Assembly (NCBI GenBank): GCA_030595925.1
Contig: JAUVLC010000015.1
Coordinates: 1 to 35,071, forward strand
DNA length: 35,071 bases
Direction: 5' to 3'
Source of the DNA: Clostridia bacterium
GTDB taxonomy: Bacteria > CBDUZB01 > JAGLHV01
The translations under genes were made by a program, and so were the position numbers. Of this stretch, positions 166 to 26,881 are shown piece after piece. The notes beneath the pieces are model-generated. The model had not been told where the DNA came from and made no database searches. It saw nothing but the letters and a program-made list of their open reading frames with translations. Position 1 is the stretch's first letter. Every line of letters begins with the position of its first letter.

Positions 166-462
166 TTAAAATCCAATTTTTTTATCGCCATTTCCCGTTA
201 TTTTTATAGTTCCGAATTGTTTTTCATATTTTTTTATATTATCTTCTAATGCATAAAAAAACCGTTTTGCATGTCCGGGACTAATAATCACCCGGCTTCG
301 CACTTTCGCTTTTGGCGATTGGGGCTGTAAATAGATAAAATCCACGGTGAATTCCGCTTCTGTATGAGAAATAGATGCTAAATTAGAATAAATCCCCTGA
401 GCAATTGTTTCATCCATATCAATTTTTATTTTAATTTGTCTATTTTTGTCATCTTCGAACAT
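166..462 (-). CDS. DUF3467 family protein
   Basis: This 98-residue protein contains the pattern EtIAQGIYSNLASISHTEAEF, then VDFI, PKAKVRSRVIISPGHAKRF and a LEDNIKKYE tail. These are recognised as the conserved blocks of DUF3467 (PF11950). That family is of unknown function and is small, soluble and about 100 residues, so this copy is full length. A strong ribosome-binding site (AAGGAGGA) lies a few bases before the ATG. The gene follows the HD-GYP gene by 34 bases on the same strand, so the two are probably co-transcribed. No catalytic motif is visible and no function is assigned. Confidence 0.85.
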   Translation of the reverse strand: MFEDDKNRQIKIKIDMDETIAQGIYSNLASISHTEAEFTVDFIYLQPQSPKAKVRSRVIISPGHAKRFFYALEDNIKKYEKQFGTIKITGNGDKKIGF

Positions 463-496: not shown

Positions 497-2125
497 TTAT
501 CTTTTTTTCATAATCCCTTTTAATTCTCTATGATAAACGCTAAAAAATGCCTGAACACATCGAGGATCAAATTGGGAACCCGCTTTTATTTCTATTTCTT
601 TAAGAGCCATCTCATCTGAAAAAATATTTTGGCGATATGGTCTTTCCGAAGTCATTGCATCGAAAGAATCAACTACTGCAATAATTCGGCTGGCCAGGGG
701 AATCTCTCTCCCTTTCAATCCATCCGGATAACCGGTCCCATCGAATTTCTCCTGGTGATGCCGTATATATGGAATAACCTCCTTTAATTGTTTTATTGAA
801 TTTAAAATTTGCGCACCTATTTCAGGATGTTTTTTAATTTTTTCCCATTCTTTTTCTGTTAAACGTCCTTCCTTCTTTAAAACAGTTTCGGGAACACCTA
901 TCTTGCCTACATCATGTAATAAAGCAGCTATTTCTACATTTCTTTTTTCTTTTTCTGACAACCCCAAATTATTTGCAATTAGCACAGTATATTTTCTAAT
1001 TCTCTCACAATGCCCTCTTGTGTAAGGATCTTTAGCATCTATTGCTTCGGCAATAGATTTTATCGTAGATAAAAAAAGATCTTCCATATCCTTGTATAAC
1101 TTAGCTTTTTCAATCGCCATAGCTGATTGTTTTGCCAAAGAACTGCAAAGACGGATATCATCCGCAGTAAAATGACTTTTTTTCTTCTTATTAATCGCCT
1201 CTATTACCCCTACTATTTTATTTCCCACTTTCAATGGAATACAAAGTATTGATTTTGTTTTAAATCCTGAAATCTCATCTATTCTTTTAGCAAAACGAGG
1301 TTCCCGGGAAACATCCGAAACCAGAACTATCTTGCCGTTTTCCGCTACCCAACCGGCAATGCCTTCCCCTTTTCTTAAATGAATTTTTTCCAAATTTTTT
1401 TCTTTTTCTCCGGGTGCTGCAATAAAAGACAATTCTTCCTGTTCTTCGTCAATTATGAGTACCGAAGTAGCTTCCGCATTTAATAATTGCATAGCTAAAG
1501 ACATAATCGTATTCAAAACAACCCTCAGATCCAGACTGGAATAGACTATTTCCGTAGCTTTAAAAAGTTTTTTTAATTCTTCAACTTTTTTTTCCGAACG
1601 GTCAAAAAGAAAGGATTTTTCAATAATTACTGCAATTTTATCCATTAAAGAACAAATTAAAGAAAAATCTTCTTCAAAAAACCCTTTTAATTCTGTTTTT
1701 TTATTATAAATTTCAATTATTCCAAAGACTCCATTTTTTTTTAGTAAAGGGATAGTTATAACATTTTTTATAAAGTAATCATCCGATTCAACCGTTTGAC
1801 TTTCCCCATTAATAAAATTATTATTCATCATCGGTTGTTCTGTTACCAAAATTTTTTCTATACGGATTTGATTGGGCATAATTTTGATCTTTTTATTTAC
1901 AACTTCTTTTCTTATTTCAAAACGGCTGGCGGCAATAGCAAATTCTTTATTTTCTTTTTCTAATAGTAAAACAACACCCCCTTCCGCATTTACTAAATTA
2001 ATCATAAGAGAAAGAACTTCCTGGAGAAGTATATCCAGTCGTTCACAAAAATTAATTAACTTATTTATTTTTTCCGAAACTTCCAGTTTAAATTTAAAAA
2101 ATTCTATACTATTTTCTTTTTTCAT
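497..2125 (-). CDS. GAF-GAF-HD-GYP cyclic-di-GMP phosphodiesterase-like regulator
   Basis: This 542-residue soluble protein has two GAF sensor domains (about 25-172 and 195-340) and a C-terminal HD-GYP domain (about 350-520). The HD-GYP domain keeps the metal and substrate motifs: HDVGKIG with H404 and D405, HHQEKFDGTGYP at 456-467, and the IPLASRII..VDSFDAMTS.RPYR block. HD-GYP enzymes of this type hydrolyse cyclic di-GMP or related cyclic dinucleotides, and the GAF domains probably sense a small ligand. There is no receiver, PAS or transmembrane segment and no GGDEF gene nearby, so the signal and its source are unknown. The gene starts 13 bases past the stop of the upstream membrane gene, with a weak ribosome-binding site, and is probably in an operon with it and the DUF3467 gene. 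Catalytic activity is inferred from the intact motifs. Confidence 0.9.
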   Translation of the reverse strand: MKKENSIEFFKFKLEVSEKINKLINFCERLDILLQEVLSLMINLVNAEGGVVLLLEKENKEFAIAASRFEIRKEVVNKKIKIMPNQIRIEKILVTEQPMMNNNFINGESQTVESDDYFIKNVITIPLLKKNGVFGIIEIYNKKTELKGFFEEDFSLICSLMDKIAVIIEKSFLFDRSEKKVEELKKLFKATEIVYSSLDLRVVLNTIMSLAMQLLNAEATSVLIIDEEQEELSFIAAPGEKEKNLEKIHLRKGEGIAGWVAENGKIVLVSDVSREPRFAKRIDEISGFKTKSILCIPLKVGNKIVGVIEAINKKKKSHFTADDIRLCSSLAKQSAMAIEKAKLYKDMEDLFLSTIKSIAEAIDAKDPYTRGHCERIRKYTVLIANNLGLSEKEKRNVEIAALLHDVGKIGVPETVLKKEGRLTEKEWEKIKKHPEIGAQILNSIKQLKEVIPYIRHHQEKFDGTGYPDGLKGREIPLASRIIAVVDSFDAMTSERPYRQNIFSDEMALKEIEIKAGSQFDPRCVQAFFSVYHRELKGIMKKR

Positions 2126-2138
2126 TTTTTTAAATTTT

Positions 2139-2564
2139 TTAATCCTCTTTTCTAAAAATATGTTTATCCTTAAATCTATAATTCAATCGATACAAAAAAA
2201 AATATCCTAACGGTTTCACAGAATTAAAAATCTGGTCAAAAAAAAGATGTTGAAAACTTCCCAAAAAAATACCAATTAGAATTTTGTTTCCCGGAAAAAA
2301 TTGTGTGCATAATCCTAAAACCAAAATTAACTCCCAGGAATGAAACGGAAGACAATATTTACTGTACTGTTTTTGATAAAATTTATTAAAGAAATCGTAA
2401 AGATTAAATTTTAATCCTTCATTCCTGAAATAATCCAGAAAATGGTCTAAATCTATGAATACTCCTGATAAAAAAAAGGCAATACTTAAACTACCCAGCC
2501 CTGTTAATTTAAACAGTATCCCTGCCCCAAAAGCAGAAACCCCAATATGTCTTGAAAGCTTAAT
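2139..2564 (-). CDS. YdjM/DUF457-like small membrane hydrolase, apparent ATT start
   Basis: The frame is open for 141 residues and encodes a hydrophobic protein beginning (I/M)KLSRHIGVSAFGAGILF. It then shows SGVFIDLDHFLDYF, FHSWELILVLGL and GIFLGSFQHLFFDQ. The spaced DLDH, HSWE and QHLFFD motifs resemble the membrane-bound putative metal-dependent hydrolases of PF04307. No ATG, GTG or TTG lies between the upstream in-frame TAG and the conserved N-terminus. An ATT at 2564 lies 7 bases after a GAGAGGG ribosome-binding site and is the best start. The first conventional start, a TTG at 2324, would discard more than half of the protein, including DLDH. The stop lies 13 bases before the HD-GYP gene. 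Family membership is moderately sure; the start is inferred. Confidence 0.65.
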   Translation of the reverse strand: MKLSRHIGVSAFGAGILFKLTGLGSLSIAFFLSGVFIDLDHFLDYFRNEGLKFNLYDFFNKFYQKQYSKYCLPFHSWELILVLGLCTQFFPGNKILIGIFLGSFQHLFFDQIFNSVKPLGYFFLYRLNYRFKDKHIFRKED

Positions 2565-2599
2565 ATCTTTGCCCTCTCTTCTTTTTTTAATATTCTATC

Positions 2600-2628
2600 A
2601 TTTTACTCAGAATTTTATTATTTGTCAA
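2600..2628 (-). promoter_or_regulatory. sigma70-type promoter for the 2139-2564 gene
   Basis: On the minus strand, TTGACA (2628-2623) and TAAAAT (2605-2600) are separated by exactly 17 bases. This is a near-consensus housekeeping promoter. Transcription would start near 2593, giving a leader of about 29 bases before the ATT start. It would also drive the HD-GYP and DUF3467 genes downstream. Confidence 0.65.
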
Positions 2629-2703: not shown

Positions 2704-3465
2704 TTAGTTTGTTTTTTTCAATATTTCCCGGGTTAAATTAATATAAGCTTCCGCACCCCGGGAAGCCCGATCATAAAGAATTATTGGCTTTCCAAATCCG
2801 GGAGATTCGGAAAGTTTCACATTACGGGGAATAATTGTTTGATAAACCTTATCCTTAAAAAATTTCCTTACTTCCCCTATTACCTGCTCAGCTAAGTTAA
2901 CCCTCATATCTGCCATGGTTAACACAACCCCTTCTATCTGTAAACCTGAATTTAAACTTCTCTTTACTAATTCCACCGTATGAATTAATTGGCCTAATCC
3001 TTCCAGGGCATAGTACTCGCACTGAATGGGAATTAAGATTGATTCCGCTGCAGTTAAACTATTGATAGTTAATAGACCTAACGAAGGAGGACAATCTAAA
3101 ATAATAAATTTATAAACATCTTTCATTTTTTCCAAGGCCTTTTTCAATCTTGTCTCCCGGGATAAAACATTGACCAACTCTACTTCCGCACCAATAAGAT
3201 TCGGACTGGAAGGAATTAAATCCAGCCAATCAATATCCGTAGAAATGAGTACATCCTCTAAAGAGGCTTCTTCCAATAACAACTCATAAATACTTTTTTT
3301 TACCCTCCTTTTGTCTATTCCTACCCCACTGGTAGCATTTGCTTGTGGATCTCCGTCAATAAGTAGTGTTTCCTGCCCTTCGTCTGCCAGACACGCAGCA
3401 ACATTAACCGCTGTAGTCGTTTTACCTACTCCCCCTTTTTGATTGACAACTGCTATTATTTTCAT
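2704..3465 (-). CDS. parA: ParA/Soj chromosome-partitioning ATPase
   Basis: This 253-residue protein has the deviant Walker A motif KGGVGKTT (10-17), the switch region LLIDGDPQANAT (34-45), the Walker B-like FIILDCPPSLGLLTINSL, and a C-terminal block NVKLSESPGFGKPIILYDRASRGAEAY. All are typical of chromosomal Soj/ParA. There is no N-terminal DNA-binding extension, which matches the small chromosomal type rather than P1-plasmid ParA. It would bind DNA nonspecifically when ATP-bound and be stimulated by ParB sitting at parS. Two parS sites lie 1.8 and 3.9 kb upstream, but parB does not follow. The next gene downstream is a membrane protein with its own promoter. The ATG is preceded by GAGG at suitable spacing. 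Confidence 0.95.
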   Translation of the reverse strand: MKIIAVVNQKGGVGKTTTAVNVAACLADEGQETLLIDGDPQANATSGVGIDKRRVKKSIYELLLEEASLEDVLISTDIDWLDLIPSSPNLIGAEVELVNVLSRETRLKKALEKMKDVYKFIILDCPPSLGLLTINSLTAAESILIPIQCEYYALEGLGQLIHTVELVKRSLNSGLQIEGVVLTMADMRVNLAEQVIGEVRKFFKDKVYQTIIPRNVKLSESPGFGKPIILYDRASRGAEAYINLTREILKKTN

Positions 3466-7502: not shown

Positions 7503-7525
7503 GTAGGGCAAACCTTTAGGTTTGC
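7503..7525. repeat. REP-like palindrome overlapping the RAYT stop
   Basis: GTAGGGCAAACC-TTTA-GGTTTGC is a further copy of the first REP unit. It overlaps the last codons and stop of the RAYT gene, so the gene end is part of the element. Confidence 0.7.
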
Positions 7526-7989
7526 GTTATATCAAACTCAAATGAGCCAAGAAAAGTATACTGTCGATAGTCATCTACTAATCCTTTTCTTACTGGATTA
7601 CCTAAAATATAATAAGCAACGCTCATCGTCTCTTCTTCTTTTCTTAGCAGATGTTCATAAAAATTAACCTGCCAAAGAGATTCCCCCTTATATTTTTTGT
7701 AGTAAAAACCTGTATGTTGTTTATATGAGGAAATAAATTGCTTCATATCAGAATGTAAATCTTTACCTTCTATTAAAATATGAAAATGATCAGGCATAAA
7801 ACAGTATACCCATATCTTAAATCCAAAAGACTTTGATTTTTCCCTTAAAATATTTATAAGCCATTTAACCAAAGATGTATCTCTAAATATTGGCAACTTA
7901 TTGAAAGTACATATTGTTATGAAATAACGATAATAACCTTTATAGTCAAAGTCTTTCAGCCGTATTCGTTTTTTATAATTTATCATCAT
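7516..7989 (-). CDS. REP-associated tyrosine transposase (RAYT, Y1/HUH family)
   Basis: This 157-residue protein of the IS200-like Y1 transposase superfamily has the HUH motif in FMPDHFHILIEG (H68, H70). A conserved GESLWQVNFYEHLLRKEEE segment has Y111 as the likely catalytic tyrosine, followed by VAYYILGNPVRKGLV. These are RAYT hallmarks. RAYTs act on single-stranded DNA and spread or maintain REP palindromes, and such palindromes flank the gene on both sides (7398-7453, 7503-7525, 8043-8065). The length is normal for a short RAYT and the reading frame is intact, so it may still work. It stands alone between the patatin-like gene and the purine permease. Assignment is from motifs plus context. 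Confidence 0.9.
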   Translation of the reverse strand: MMINYKKRIRLKDFDYKGYYRYFITICTFNKLPIFRDTSLVKWLINILREKSKSFGFKIWVYCFMPDHFHILIEGKDLHSDMKQFISSYKQHTGFYYKKYKGESLWQVNFYEHLLRKEEETMSVAYYILGNPVRKGLVDDYRQYTFLGSFEFDITQT

Positions 7990-14361: not shown

Positions 14362-17300
14362 TTATTCACCTAATACGCTTTCTTTTTCCAAAGAGTCTTT
14401 TTTCATTTTTATCTCTTCTTCCAATTCTTTTTCAATTTCTTCAAAACGGTTCATTTCTTTTTCTTCGATAAATTTCATTTTACTTATAGCTTCCCTGCTT
14501 TTTAAATCTATTAATTGCTCGAAAGGTATCTTATCCAATAATGCCTGTACTAAATAATATAACCTCATAATAACCTTCAGCATCAGATACTGTTTTTTTA
14601 AAGAGGTATAGGTATCTATTTCGTCAAACGCATGTTGATGCAAAAAATCTTCTTTTATTATTTTTCCCATTTCTAAAATCAATCTATCTCCCGCTGACAA
14701 CGCCTCTAATCCCACTAAACGCACGATTTCTTCCAGATTAGCTACTTTTTGTAAAATCTTTAGGGCTTCATCACGCATTTTTATAAAATCCGGGGCAACT
14801 TCTTTTTCCATATATTCACCAATATTATCCACATATAAAGAATAACTACGCAACCAGTTTATTGCCGGAAAATGACGCATATAAGCCAACCGGTCTTCCA
14901 ATCCCCAAAAAACTTTTACAATGCGCAACGTATTTTGTACTACCGGGTCAGCCAGGTCTCCTCCGGGAGGAGAAACTGCCCCGACAATAGAAAGAGAAGC
15001 TATTCGTTGGTCAGAACCTAAACAGGTTACTTTTCCTGCCCTTTCATAAAAAGAAGCGATTCTTGAAGCTAAATAGGCCGGATATCCTTCTTCTCCCGGC
15101 ATTTCTTCCAATCTTCCGGACATCTCCCTTAATGCTTCCGCCCAGCGGGAGGTTGAATCAGCCATTAAAGCTACCCGATATCCCATATCCCGAAAATATT
15201 CAGCCAGTGTAATCCCTGTATAAATAGAAGCTTCCCGTGCCGCTACCGGCATATTAGAGGTATTAGCAATTAAAATTGTTCTTTTAATTAATGATTCTCC
15301 GGTGAGAGGATCTTTCAAGGCCGGAAATTCTAATAAAACATCGGTCATTTCATTACCCCTCTCTCCACATCCCACATAAACAATAATATCAGCATCCGAC
15401 CATTTGGCTAATTGGTGAAGTACCACGGTATTTGAATAAATCATGGCAAAATCTCCACCTATAAAATTATGATCTCCCGGAACTTCTATATCATAAACCG
15501 TACAGGGAGTATTAATTTCTTTAATTTCAACGATTTTATCACAATAAATATGTTCCATATCATTTGTGGCAAATTTTATTAATTGAGAATTATTCATTAC
15601 CTGCGCAAATTTCCTAAACATCTTCTTGCTTATCAATTCTCCGGAAAGATAATTATGAATTTCCACCCCTTTTCCCTTTAATTTTTTATAGGGTCTTCCT
15701 GCCCGTTCATAAACAGACTTAATCAATGAAATTCCCATGGGAACAATATCAATGCAGGTATATTCTCTTTTTTTCAAGGCAAGATAGTCTTTAATCTTCT
15801 TGAATTTTGAAAGATTGTTCATTTTGCAAAAATTAAAAAAGCTTTTTATTTCTTCCCCACCTGAAACAAAAAGATAATATTGTTTAAATCCTTTATTGAC
15901 TTTTTCTTTTACTCTTGTTATTATTCCTAATCGCAAAAATAAATAAGCCAATCCTTTTTGCATTTCTTTTGAAGCAGTAGAATATTCAATTTCACCTTTT
16001 TCTTGATTAAAATATCCATCACAAACAAAATATGCACCGAGAAATGTTTTAATTATTGAGGGAGGACTTTTAAAAACAATTTTCGGAACAAAACAATTGC
16101 GTGATTTTTTATATTCCGGATAACCAAAATATTTCAATAATTTTGCAAGAATAGTGCTTTCCACGATTGAACATTTCACCTTATTGCATATAGTCCTTTT
16201 CCCTTTCAACCCAAAAAGATGCTCGATTAACTTCTCAAATAAATTCAACATTTTTTCATCATTATTGTAAAATCTTACACTATTTTGTTTAATCATTCCA
16301 TCACCCAACATCAATCCCAAAAAAGTAGCCATTTCTTCATTAAATTTCTCAGGAATCTTTACTTTTTTACTTCCCCTCTCTCCTTTAATATTTTTTATTT
16401 TGGGAAATTTTTTTCTACTTGTTAAATAAAGTTTTTCTACAAACTTTACCGTGGGTCGATTCTTTTTCAAAAAATACCCAATTAACATATCGTAAGAAAT
16501 ATTTAATTGGCTCGCTACTCCCTTTTTGTTTTTAGTTTTTGAAGCAAGTTTATTAATCAGGAAAGGGATTTTTTCTATGATTTCCCTCTCCACAATTCTT
16601 TGATTCGGAAAAATTTTTTTAATCGATAGCCCCTGAATTTTACCTTTAATATCTATTCTCCTCGGAATTGAAAGATAATCACCAACTTTTAAATCTTTTG
16701 CCTCTTTATAATCAATATCCAAATTACCATTAAATTTAGGAAGTTTATGTATGGGAGTAACTTTTGCAACCCTTCCTGTACGTGTTTTAATTTTAATTAT
16801 TTTATTGGTCTTCCCTTTATAAACCACACTAACTTTACTTTTACTAAACCCTCTCGCTGAACCGGAAAAAACCTCAAAAGGACTTGATAATATTGTGTAT
16901 TCTTCCCCAAAAGTCTTTACTTTCTTTCCTTTCAACTCATTTTCAAGAAAAATATCTTTCATTGATTTTAAACAACCATCGGCAAGAAGTACCGGTGTAT
17001 CCCCTGTTACACATTTTCCACTTCCAAAGGGTCCCGGGATACAAGCCGTTCCTCCCTTGGCTATGGGAAAAAAAGTATCGATTACCCGCGTACCGGTAAT
17101 TAACGGTTCCTCTAAAGTAAGTTTTTTCAGGTAAGGCCGTGCTTGCCGTACCGGCCAATGCTGTAACATACAAAGTTTTTTTATTTGTTTTTCCCCTTCA
17201 ATACTTAATTCTGCAATAGTATCTTCTACTGTGAATTCCCCAGCAAAAATATTTTTTATCGTTCCCTCCACCCCGGGAGGAACCATAATCTTATGCATTA

Positions 17301-17727
17301 CTAATTCGGTTTCTTTCACTTCTCCTAAAATATCTCCTTCAGTAACCACTTCCCCTTTTTTGACCTTCGGAACAAATTTCCATTTTTTCTCCCGATTAAT
17401 TTTGGGTAAATCTATCCCCCGGGTAATATAATCCCCTACTTTTTGACTAATTGTCTCTAACGGCCGTTGAATCCCGTCATAAATGGAAGTAACCAGTCCC
17501 GGACCCAATTCCACTGACAGGGGCTGTCCCGTAGCAACAACAATCTCTCCCGGCCCTATTCCTGTAGTTTCTTCGTAAACTTGAATGGAAACATGGTCAC
17601 CTTTTAACTCCACTACTTCCCCGATTAACCCTTCCTCCCCAACCCGAACTACTTCATACATCTTTACCCCCGGCAAATCAGTAGCTACGACCAGAGGACC
17701 TGATACTTTTATTATTTTTCCCTTCAT
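14362..17727 (-). CDS. atpA: V/A-type ATPase catalytic subunit A, interrupted by an intein
   Basis: This 1121-residue precursor consists of an N-extein (1-238), an intein (239-766) and a C-extein (767-1121). The spliced product would be 593 residues, the usual size of subunit A. The N-extein has the barrel domain, the long non-homologous insert (about 110-190) and PGPFGSGK. The C-extein begins TVVLHQLAKWSDADIIVYVG, followed by CGERGNEM, then SNMPVAAREASIYTG, DSTSRWAEALRE and PGEEGYPAYL. Joining the two restores GPFGSGKT, the P-loop that binds ATP, so the enzyme would be dead without splicing. Subunit A hydrolyses or makes ATP in the A3B3 ring. It follows subunit F by 35 bases. Confidence 0.97.
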   Translation of the reverse strand: MKGKIIKVSGPLVVATDLPGVKMYEVVRVGEEGLIGEVVELKGDHVSIQVYEETTGIGPGEIVVATGQPLSVELGPGLVTSIYDGIQRPLETISQKVGDYITRGIDLPKINREKKWKFVPKVKKGEVVTEGDILGEVKETELVMHKIMVPPGVEGTIKNIFAGEFTVEDTIAELSIEGEKQIKKLCMLQHWPVRQARPYLKKLTLEEPLITGTRVIDTFFPIAKGGTACIPGPFGSGKCVTGDTPVLLADGCLKSMKDIFLENELKGKKVKTFGEEYTILSSPFEVFSGSARGFSKSKVSVVYKGKTNKIIKIKTRTGRVAKVTPIHKLPKFNGNLDIDYKEAKDLKVGDYLSIPRRIDIKGKIQGLSIKKIFPNQRIVEREIIEKIPFLINKLASKTKNKKGVASQLNISYDMLIGYFLKKNRPTVKFVEKLYLTSRKKFPKIKNIKGERGSKKVKIPEKFNEEMATFLGLMLGDGMIKQNSVRFYNNDEKMLNLFEKLIEHLFGLKGKRTICNKVKCSIVESTILAKLLKYFGYPEYKKSRNCFVPKIVFKSPPSIIKTFLGAYFVCDGYFNQEKGEIEYSTASKEMQKGLAYLFLRLGIITRVKEKVNKGFKQYYLFVSGGEEIKSFFNFCKMNNLSKFKKIKDYLALKKREYTCIDIVPMGISLIKSVYERAGRPYKKLKGKGVEIHNYLSGELISKKMFRKFAQVMNNSQLIKFATNDMEHIYCDKIVEIKEINTPCTVYDIEVPGDHNFIGGDFAMIYSNTVVLHQLAKWSDADIIVYVGCGERGNEMTDVLLEFPALKDPLTGESLIKRTILIANTSNMPVAAREASIYTGITLAEYFRDMGYRVALMADSTSRWAEALREMSGRLEEMPGEEGYPAYLASRIASFYERAGKVTCLGSDQRIASLSIVGAVSPPGGDLADPVVQNTLRIVKVFWGLEDRLAYMRHFPAINWLRSYSLYVDNIGEYMEKEVAPDFIKMRDEALKILQKVANLEEIVRLVGLEALSAGDRLILEMGKIIKEDFLHQHAFDEIDTYTSLKKQYLMLKVIMRLYYLVQALLDKIPFEQLIDLKSREAISKMKFIEEKEMNRFEEIEKELEEEIKMKKDSLEKESVLGE
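15430..17013 (-). mobile_element. 528-residue LAGLIDADG intein in the subunit A P-loop (VMA-b site)
   Basis: The intein runs from C1 to N528, between GPFGSGK and T. Block A is CVTGDTPVLLADG (1-13). Block B is VAKVTPIHKL, with T86 and H89. The two LAGLIDADG helices are TFLGLMLGDGMI (D238) and TFLGAYFVCDGYF (D332), so both homing endonuclease acidic residues remain. Block F is VYDIEVPGDHNFIGG, with H515. Block G is MIYSN followed by the +1 T. The penultimate residue is serine (S527) instead of the usual histidine. A helix-turn-helix-like stretch (KGVASQLNISYDMLIGYFLK, 164-183) may help recognise DNA. The frame is open throughout. The site matches the archaeal VMA-b position, not the yeast VMA1 site before CGERGNEM. 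Confidence 0.95.
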
Positions 17728-25493: not shown

Positions 25494-26777
25494 CTATTTA
25501 GCTAACACAATTGTTCCGTTAGATACCTTATTTCCGACTTTGAGCTGATATATGTATACCCCACCTTTTACAGTTGAACCATTGCTATCTTTCCCGTCCC
25601 ATATCAATGAAGACGTACTATTTTGATATAAACTATCTTTAATTAAACAGCCGGAAATTTCGAATATTTTTCCGGAAACCAGTTTGTTCTCGGAATTTTC
25701 AAAAACAAAGGTTACTATATCGTTAATCCCATCTCCATTAGGTGTAAATACCCGGGGATGAAGCGTAACTGAACCTAAAGAGGATCCGGTAAAGACTAAT
25801 CGAAAATCGAGTGTATTTGTCATACCCGCAGTTACTTTTGCTTGTTTTGATTGAGGACGATAACCTCTTTTTGACGCTGTTACTATATAATCCCCCGATA
25901 CTACATTTAGTATTGTGTAGTTCCCTACTGAATTTGTTGTGTCTGAATACCCATTAGCGGCTACTATCGTTCCCTGAATTGGATTATTATCCATATCTCT
26001 GACTGTCCCTGATATTGCATTAGCACCTCTCAGAAAATCCGCCAATATTTCTTCAGAACTCAATGCTTGATTGTAAATTTTGACTTCATCAATAATACCA
26101 TTAAATGGATCATTCCATTGGTCTTCAGTCCACCACCCTCCAATATGAAGGTTTGCATTAGAAGGATTTATTCCGGGAGGCGAATTTTTTGTATTTGGAT
26201 CCTGTTCTCCGTTGATATATACTTTCACTGTTGTCCCATCAGATGTAACCGCTACATGTGACCATATATTATTAGCAAGAGTATTTTCGGAAATAAGCCA
26301 TATTGCATTTGAGTTTGTTCCATCGGCACTGAGTTCAAAATTGATTTTTCCATCCGCCCCAATGTAAAAAACAAAGGAACGTTCAAAAATTCCTAGCCCA
26401 TAAAGCCATTTTTCTATCATCGCTTGCTTAGCTGTAATAAATGGTTTTACCCAAATTATAAGGGTAATTTCACTGGTAATGGTATCCAAACTACTTGAGT
26501 CAGGAGCTTCAATATAATCATTATCTCCATCAAATTGTAATCCCATTCCAAATTTTCCATCCACCCGGTCTGCAAGAGGATTCATATTGATTAAAGTTCC
26601 AGTATTATTATTTCCGGAAGAGTCATTTACCGTTATTCCATTTTCTTCTTCAAAGTGCCACAAACCAATGGGCTCTGCAGTACAATTAAAAGAAACAAAC
26701 CCCAGATGGAGAGTCCCTATTAGAAATACACATGCGAAGATGTGTTTCATTCTATTACTCAAATTTTCTTTTTTCAT
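25494..26777 (-). CDS. secreted LamG-domain protein with CarboxypepD_reg-like and FlgD/CHU_C-type C-terminal domains
   Basis: The frame can reach 459 residues from 26873, but I start at 26777 (427 residues). The first ATG lies between the -35 and -10 of a good promoter, and MKKENLSNRMKHIFACVFLI begins a signal peptide. Domains in order: a LamG/concanavalin-like fold (GLWHFEEENG, LQFDGDNDYIEAPDSSSLD, WSHVAVTSDGTTVKVYINGE, FNGIIDEVKIYNQALSSEEI); a CarboxypepD_reg-like segment (ISGTVRDMDNNPIQGTIVAA); and a FlgD-Ig/CHU_C-type end (VFTPNGDGINDIVTF, WDGKDSNGSTVKGGVYIYQL). It is probably a carbohydrate-binding or surface protein. The last domain resembles those on secreted proteins in several phyla. 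No catalytic domain is seen. Confidence 0.8.
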   Translation of the reverse strand: MKKENLSNRMKHIFACVFLIGTLHLGFVSFNCTAEPIGLWHFEEENGITVNDSSGNNNTGTLINMNPLADRVDGKFGMGLQFDGDNDYIEAPDSSSLDTITSEITLIIWVKPFITAKQAMIEKWLYGLGIFERSFVFYIGADGKINFELSADGTNSNAIWLISENTLANNIWSHVAVTSDGTTVKVYINGEQDPNTKNSPPGINPSNANLHIGGWWTEDQWNDPFNGIIDEVKIYNQALSSEEILADFLRGANAISGTVRDMDNNPIQGTIVAANGYSDTTNSVGNYTILNVVSGDYIVTASKRGYRPQSKQAKVTAGMTNTLDFRLVFTGSSLGSVTLHPRVFTPNGDGINDIVTFVFENSENKLVSGKIFEISGCLIKDSLYQNSTSSLIWDGKDSNGSTVKGGVYIYQLKVGNKVSNGTIVLAK

Positions 26778-26851
26778 TTTCCCCTTTTTTATCTTTGCCA
26801 TAACAATTAATAAACTAATTTCTTTTTTCTTATATTTTTTAAAGTAACATA

Positions 26852-26881
26852 TTTTTAGAGAGTATTCAAGCATAAAGTCAA
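26852..26881 (-). promoter_or_regulatory. promoter for the LamG gene
   Basis: On the minus strand, TTGACT (26881-26876) and TAAAAA (26857-26852) have 18-base spacing. Transcription starting near 26845 would exclude the first ATG of the frame and leave the ATGs at 26801 and 26777. Confidence 0.45.

Follow-up and report, generated by a model that had tools for sequence, protein, structure and literature searches.

A conserved membrane-protein gene with a probable ATT start codon, in a family where such starts seem to recur

The 35,071 nt stretch of contig JAUVLC010000015.1 analysed here (the window, from a Clostridia bacterium) contains a minus-strand reading frame that stays open far upstream of its first conventional start codon, and this raises the question of where translation of the gene begins. 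A listing of ORFs that start with ATG, GTG or TTG gives a TTG ORF of 61 residues at this locus (positions 2139..2324, minus strand), which is exactly what the preliminary description had expected of gene finders restricted to these codons. That description had proposed a gene of 141 codons starting at an ATT (2562..2564, minus strand), and the proposed frame was borne out. It is bounded upstream by an in-frame TAG (2595..2597) that lies 10 codons before the ATT, and downstream by a TAA (2139-2141), giving a predicted coding sequence at 2142..2564 for a membrane protein with a distant resemblance to YdjM, with fMet presumed as residue 1. There is no ATG, GTG or TTG between the TAG and residue 81, where the first such codon is the TTG at 2324. 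The absence of a canonical start is weak evidence when taken alone, since stretches of 79 codons lacking ATG, GTG and TTG are not very rare inside the window's real genes (371 of 6388), and it is the homologs that make the case.

A Shine-Dalgarno-like GAGAGGG (2572..2578, minus strand) is found where the preliminary description had placed it, 7 bases ahead of the ATT and at a normal distance, with a duplex energy of -8.0 kcal/mol (computed against an assumed 16S tail). A second species of the same genus, G002, has AAAAGGGGA in the same place. Further upstream on this strand is a -35 box TTGACA (2623..2628, identical in G002), with a -10 box TAAAAT 17 bases from it (2600..2605; TAGAAT in G002). 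The near-consensus promoter reported earlier is present in both species, but the match itself is not beyond chance in so AT-rich a window (1 match, compared with 1.09 in shuffled sequences, at one mismatch or fewer), and by itself the promoter motif is only moderately informative. Folding of the start region gave a hairpin that pairs the Shine-Dalgarno site with bases just past the start, and this was no stabler than the folds of shuffled sequences (z -0.69).

Alignment of homologs, the check proposed in the preliminary description, places the N-terminus on the ATT codon. Homologs from Elusimicrobia, an Aenigmarchaeote and several bacterial phyla have ATG or TTG, mostly ATG, at exactly this position, and they carry the upstream 80 residues, the lack of which in relatives had been named as evidence against the longer frame. 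Twelve residues are invariant in an alignment of 11 homologs, and seven of these (H6, D38, D40, H41, K69, H75 and E78) precede residue 81 and are absent from the 61-residue ORF, while the others (H106, D110, Y121, R126 and F131) follow it. Gene finders limited to ATG, GTG and TTG report a wrong, non-functional remnant at this locus. The earlier observation of a likely ATT-started gene is confirmed by these comparisons, and its interpretation is supported.

A family profile built from the 11 homologs had matches in 24 of 386 genomes, and five small phylum searches gave matches in 1 of 2, 2 of 6, 3 of 4, 1 of 4 and 22 of 45 genomes, with some genomes recurring. The N-terminus is covered in 36 homologs, mostly from metagenome assemblies, and it is on these that the recurrence described here rests: position 1 is ATG in 28, TTG in two, ATT in three, ATA in two and ATC in one. 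The six members with an ATH start (ATT, ATA or ATC; AUH, that is AUU, AUA or AUC, in the mRNA) have ATT in the window's genome (G000), G002 and G386, ATA in G185 and G189, and ATC in G389. G069, from the same genus as G386, starts with ATG. Four of the six (G000, G386, G189 and G389) have no ATG, GTG or TTG between the preceding stop and the conserved block. The remaining two are ambiguous because each has an in-frame upstream TTG, in G002 at 8 codons before the ATT and without a Shine-Dalgarno site ahead of it, and in G185 at six codons before the first ATA and directly abutting the Shine-Dalgarno sequence. On a tree of the 36 rows, four start-codon changes are needed, at least three of them forced by well supported branches, and a single change was enough in none of 200 bootstrap trees. 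Left out of this tree were L008, L009 and L010 (profile match starting at position 5 or 6), L035, L036, L037 and L040 (weak scores, all with ATG at position 1) and L038, L039, L041, L042, L076 and L084 (start uncovered). ATH starts seem to arise repeatedly in this family, a result that is new here and less expected than the assignment of the window gene to a known class of starts.

Control searches were made in 30 genomes from the 36-row set, using lspA (PF01252) and infC (PF05198). For lspA there were 32 matches in 28 genomes, 30 of them with loci, and all 30 offered a canonical start in the 35 codons ahead of the conserved block. For infC there were 27 matches in the 30 genomes, or 28 loci once G001 was added; 11 of the 28 had no canonical start within 35 codons and ten had none at all (in L225 there is one further up), and the loci without one typically have ATT or ATC after GGAGGTGA. 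The ten (L215, L220, L222, L223, L226, L229, L233, L234, L236 and L238) come from several lineages. The test of starts thus recovers infC, the textbook example, and flags nothing in lspA. Compared with lspA, the strict count for the family is 4/30 versus 0/30 (Fisher p 0.056), and 6/30 versus 0/30 (p 0.012) when the two ambiguous members are included.

The background frequency of ATH starts was estimated by coding potential. A first scan flagged four of 719 genes and was too insensitive, leaving the window gene itself unflagged. A laxer scan of sampled stretches from five carrier genomes flagged 27 of 1095 genes, which were sorted by eye, with Pfam run on ten. Two of the flagged genes belong to the family (those of G000 and G389). 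Another three seem to have genuine ATH starts: the G189 infC and, in G386 and G389 respectively, genes for a response regulator and a TonB receptor, both with ATC. The remaining 22 we took for fragments, masked stretches, spurious frames or genes whose ordinary start lies slightly downstream. The response regulator gene (L105 17960-18337) has no ATG, GTG or TTG before codon 14, and the likely start is the ATC at codon 3, which follows GGAGGTGA, while the gene for the TonB-dependent receptor (L177 936-2918, minus strand) lacks these codons in its first 147 and has an ATC directly after the stop, past GAGGAGG. The resulting background rate is about 0.3% of genes, from a scan that misses perhaps half, since of the four family genes in the scanned stretches two were flagged; the rate is close to the six of 2265 conserved genes given for Listeria in PMC13068326. 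In a rough binomial estimate, three further events in about 32 lineages (rounded) have a probability of 9e-5 at this rate, or 0.005 if it is taken as four times as high.

Shine-Dalgarno strength, taken as the energy of the best duplex before the start (again against the assumed 16S tail), had a median of -7.9 kcal/mol in the six ATH rows and -3.6 in the 30 canonical rows (one-sided p 0.009). Canonical family rows were also weaker than lspA (p 0.007; paired over 23 genomes, one-sided p 0.005), a comparison in which lspA is favoured because its start was taken as the candidate with the best site, and all of these p values are rough because the rows are related. The sites are weak in two ATH rows, G189 and G389 (-3.8 and -3.9), and some ATG rows have strong ones (G431 and G432). 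There seem to be two routes to weak initiation, either a strong Shine-Dalgarno site with AUU, AUA or AUC, or AUG with a poor site.

In the mechanism we propose for the window gene, the Shine-Dalgarno site would recruit the 30S subunit to the AUU, the initiator tRNA would mispair with its third base, and IF3 would reduce the rate of such starts, so that little protein would be made and its amount would vary with IF3 activity. We infer initiation at AUU, low output and IF3 sensitivity, together with some benefit to the cell of the low output. By analogy with infC, pcnB, cvfC1 and ccpN, a weak, IF3-sensitive start that would act as a translation throttle is the most likely reading, and the ATT, ATA and ATC codons in distant relatives hint that cells may keep this protein scarce. 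There is an appreciable chance, however, that the ATT start is real and has no regulatory meaning, a low-demand gene having drifted to a weak start; the switch between ATG and ATT within the genus of G069 and G386, and that between ATA in G189 and ATC in G389, would be in keeping with drift. It accounts less well for at least three separate occurrences in one family, when the rate for genes generally is so low, and for the strong Shine-Dalgarno sites that four of the six ATH starts are paired with. Extending the throttle to the family as a whole, it is conceivable, though we regard it as doubtful, that this is the second family after infC with recurrent AUH starts across phyla, marking a conserved translational set-point in which the AUH members and infC would form a regulon that responds to IF3 level.

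Other explanations concern the start codon itself, and the comparison with G002 (public MAG contig JAGLYT010000117.1) bears on them. The sample of this phylum consists of three genomes of one genus, G000, G001 and G002, and a search for more of the genus gave only the latter two; the gene is present in G000 and G002, and no homolog match was found in G001. G002 keeps the ATT at the same codon, the same open frame, the TTGACA with its 17-base spacer, and, at the same length, the run of eight A (2470..2477, plus strand) that had been suspected earlier as an indel site. Of the 35 differences between the two genomes among the 420 bases of codons 2-141, 18 fall at third positions, and dN/dS is 0.25; by comparison, 9 of the 30 bases directly before the ATT differ, and 16 of 76 in the upstream stretch. 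Residues 2-80, which would be untranslated if the short ORF were the true one, are identical at 72 of 79 positions. This pattern of substitution indicates that the frame is selected from near the ATT onward, with no such constraint visible in the bases that precede it.

An upstream start at a further ATT (2591-2589), aligned near the TTG of G002 and adding about nine residues, is unlikely. The frame is open for ten codons there and G002 offers a TTG, but no Shine-Dalgarno site precedes the upstream ATT, a start at that codon would come almost at the very beginning, in the first few bases, of any transcript directed by the -10 box, the stretch is far more variable than the coding sequence, as given above, and homologs start at the later codon; in the window, the start would be ATT either way. 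Less probable again is a decaying gene, in which the ATT replaces an ancestral ATG and the locus yields at most the 61-residue TTG product. The absence of a homolog in G001 and the difference between G386 and G069 inside one genus could be read in this way, whereas codons 2-80 have kept most of their residues and an open frame under the low dN/dS of the gene overall, and the short form would be without residues that are invariant in the 11 homologs. A sequencing or assembly error hiding an ATG, whether by one wrong base or by an indel that removed an upstream ATG, had been allowed for in the preliminary description and would need a single base in a fragmented assembly (193 contigs), but it is very unlikely because G002, a separately assembled and clearly diverged sequence, shares the ATT, frame, eight-A run and -35 box without any indel, and homologs put the start at the same codon. 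We consider it probable that this is a real and maintained gene of a parA-parB cluster, specifying a 141-residue membrane protein whose translation would start at AUU with low, IF3-dependent output.

The genes around it are all on the minus strand. Upstream is a ParA-type ATPase (AAA_31; 2704..3465), and downstream, 14 bases past the stop, is the gene for a GAF and HD-domain protein (497..2125), followed by DUF3467 (166..462) and, in G002, by a parB-type gene. Elsewhere in the window, and also on the minus strand, are a gene for subunit A of a V-type ATPase, split by a LAGLIDADG-containing intein (14362-17727; Intein_splicing, LAGLIDADG_3), an IS200-like Y1 transposase gene (7516-7989) and a gene for a Laminin-G-like / carboxypeptidase-regulatory protein with a CHU_C-type C-terminal domain (25494-26873).

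Pfam and NCBIfam searches gave no name for the protein. The YdjM/DUF457-like label used earlier holds as a distant resemblance, but the match to PF04307 (YdjM) is below the cut-off of 29 bits (9.9 bits, E 0.64), as it is in all four family proteins scanned, the best being the G389 homolog (20 bits, E 5e-4). An AlphaFold2 model was poor (mean pLDDT 63) and a PDB fold search with a threshold of E 0.001 came back empty, so we draw no functional conclusion from structure. The conserved His/Asp set would suit a membrane-bound metal enzyme. In G389, the YdjM-like domain shares one reading frame, as an in-frame fusion, with an RlpA-like lytic transglycosylase that has DPBB_1 and SPOR domains (L044 1483-2610), the RlpA lipobox being internal, and the same RlpA-like fusion, judged by eye, seems to be present in G189 (L029). 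The genomic setting and the RlpA fusion suggest a role in the envelope, and possibly a reason for keeping the protein scarce.

To our knowledge, throttling at the start codon is known from few genes, and a family with repeated AUH starts is a natural comparative experiment on why cells do so; the homologs listed supply matched AUG and AUH forms that reporter tests could compare. A literature search gave no paper joining DUF457 and start codon. Judged from its sequence, the ATT gene adds a member to the known AUH-start class, of the infC and pcnB kind. E. coli pcnB is reportedly limited by its AUU start, to go by the title of a 2002 paper by Binns and Masters, and resembles the ATT gene in being a non-IF3 gene limited in this way, its protein being unrelated. 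infC, which is the strongest ATH family in our sample and itself looks ATH-started in G185, G189 and G389, is alike in combining an AUH start with a Shine-Dalgarno site; it is reported to start with ATT in E. coli and ATC in Streptomyces (PMC5472188), and with AUA in S. aureus (PMC13009471). The product of the ATT gene is not IF3, so there would be no direct feedback loop, and the hint of infC-like feedback in the preliminary description is not upheld. In the window's own genus, the Shine-Dalgarno site of infC is directly followed by an in-frame TTG in 3/3 genomes, with an in-frame ATA two codons later as a less likely start, and because of this TTG the genus probably lacks the AUH feedback of IF3 on itself. 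Two S. aureus genes, cvfC1 (AUU) and ccpN (AUA), have conserved non-canonical starts with extended Shine-Dalgarno motifs, and in poor medium their reporters reached about 10% of the output with AUG (PMC13009471); they encode other proteins and were demonstrated by ribosome profiling, whereas the ATT gene is predicted from sequence. For Listeria rsbW, the order reported in PMC13068326 is ATG > ATA > ATT. The GTC start of Streptomyces sigR is repressed by IF3 and is conserved in 32 of 34 species, with GTT in two (PMC5472188), and the difference from the present case is that sigR, as described there, involves GUC, one genus and one regulator, whereas the family of the ATT gene has AUH starts in several phyla.
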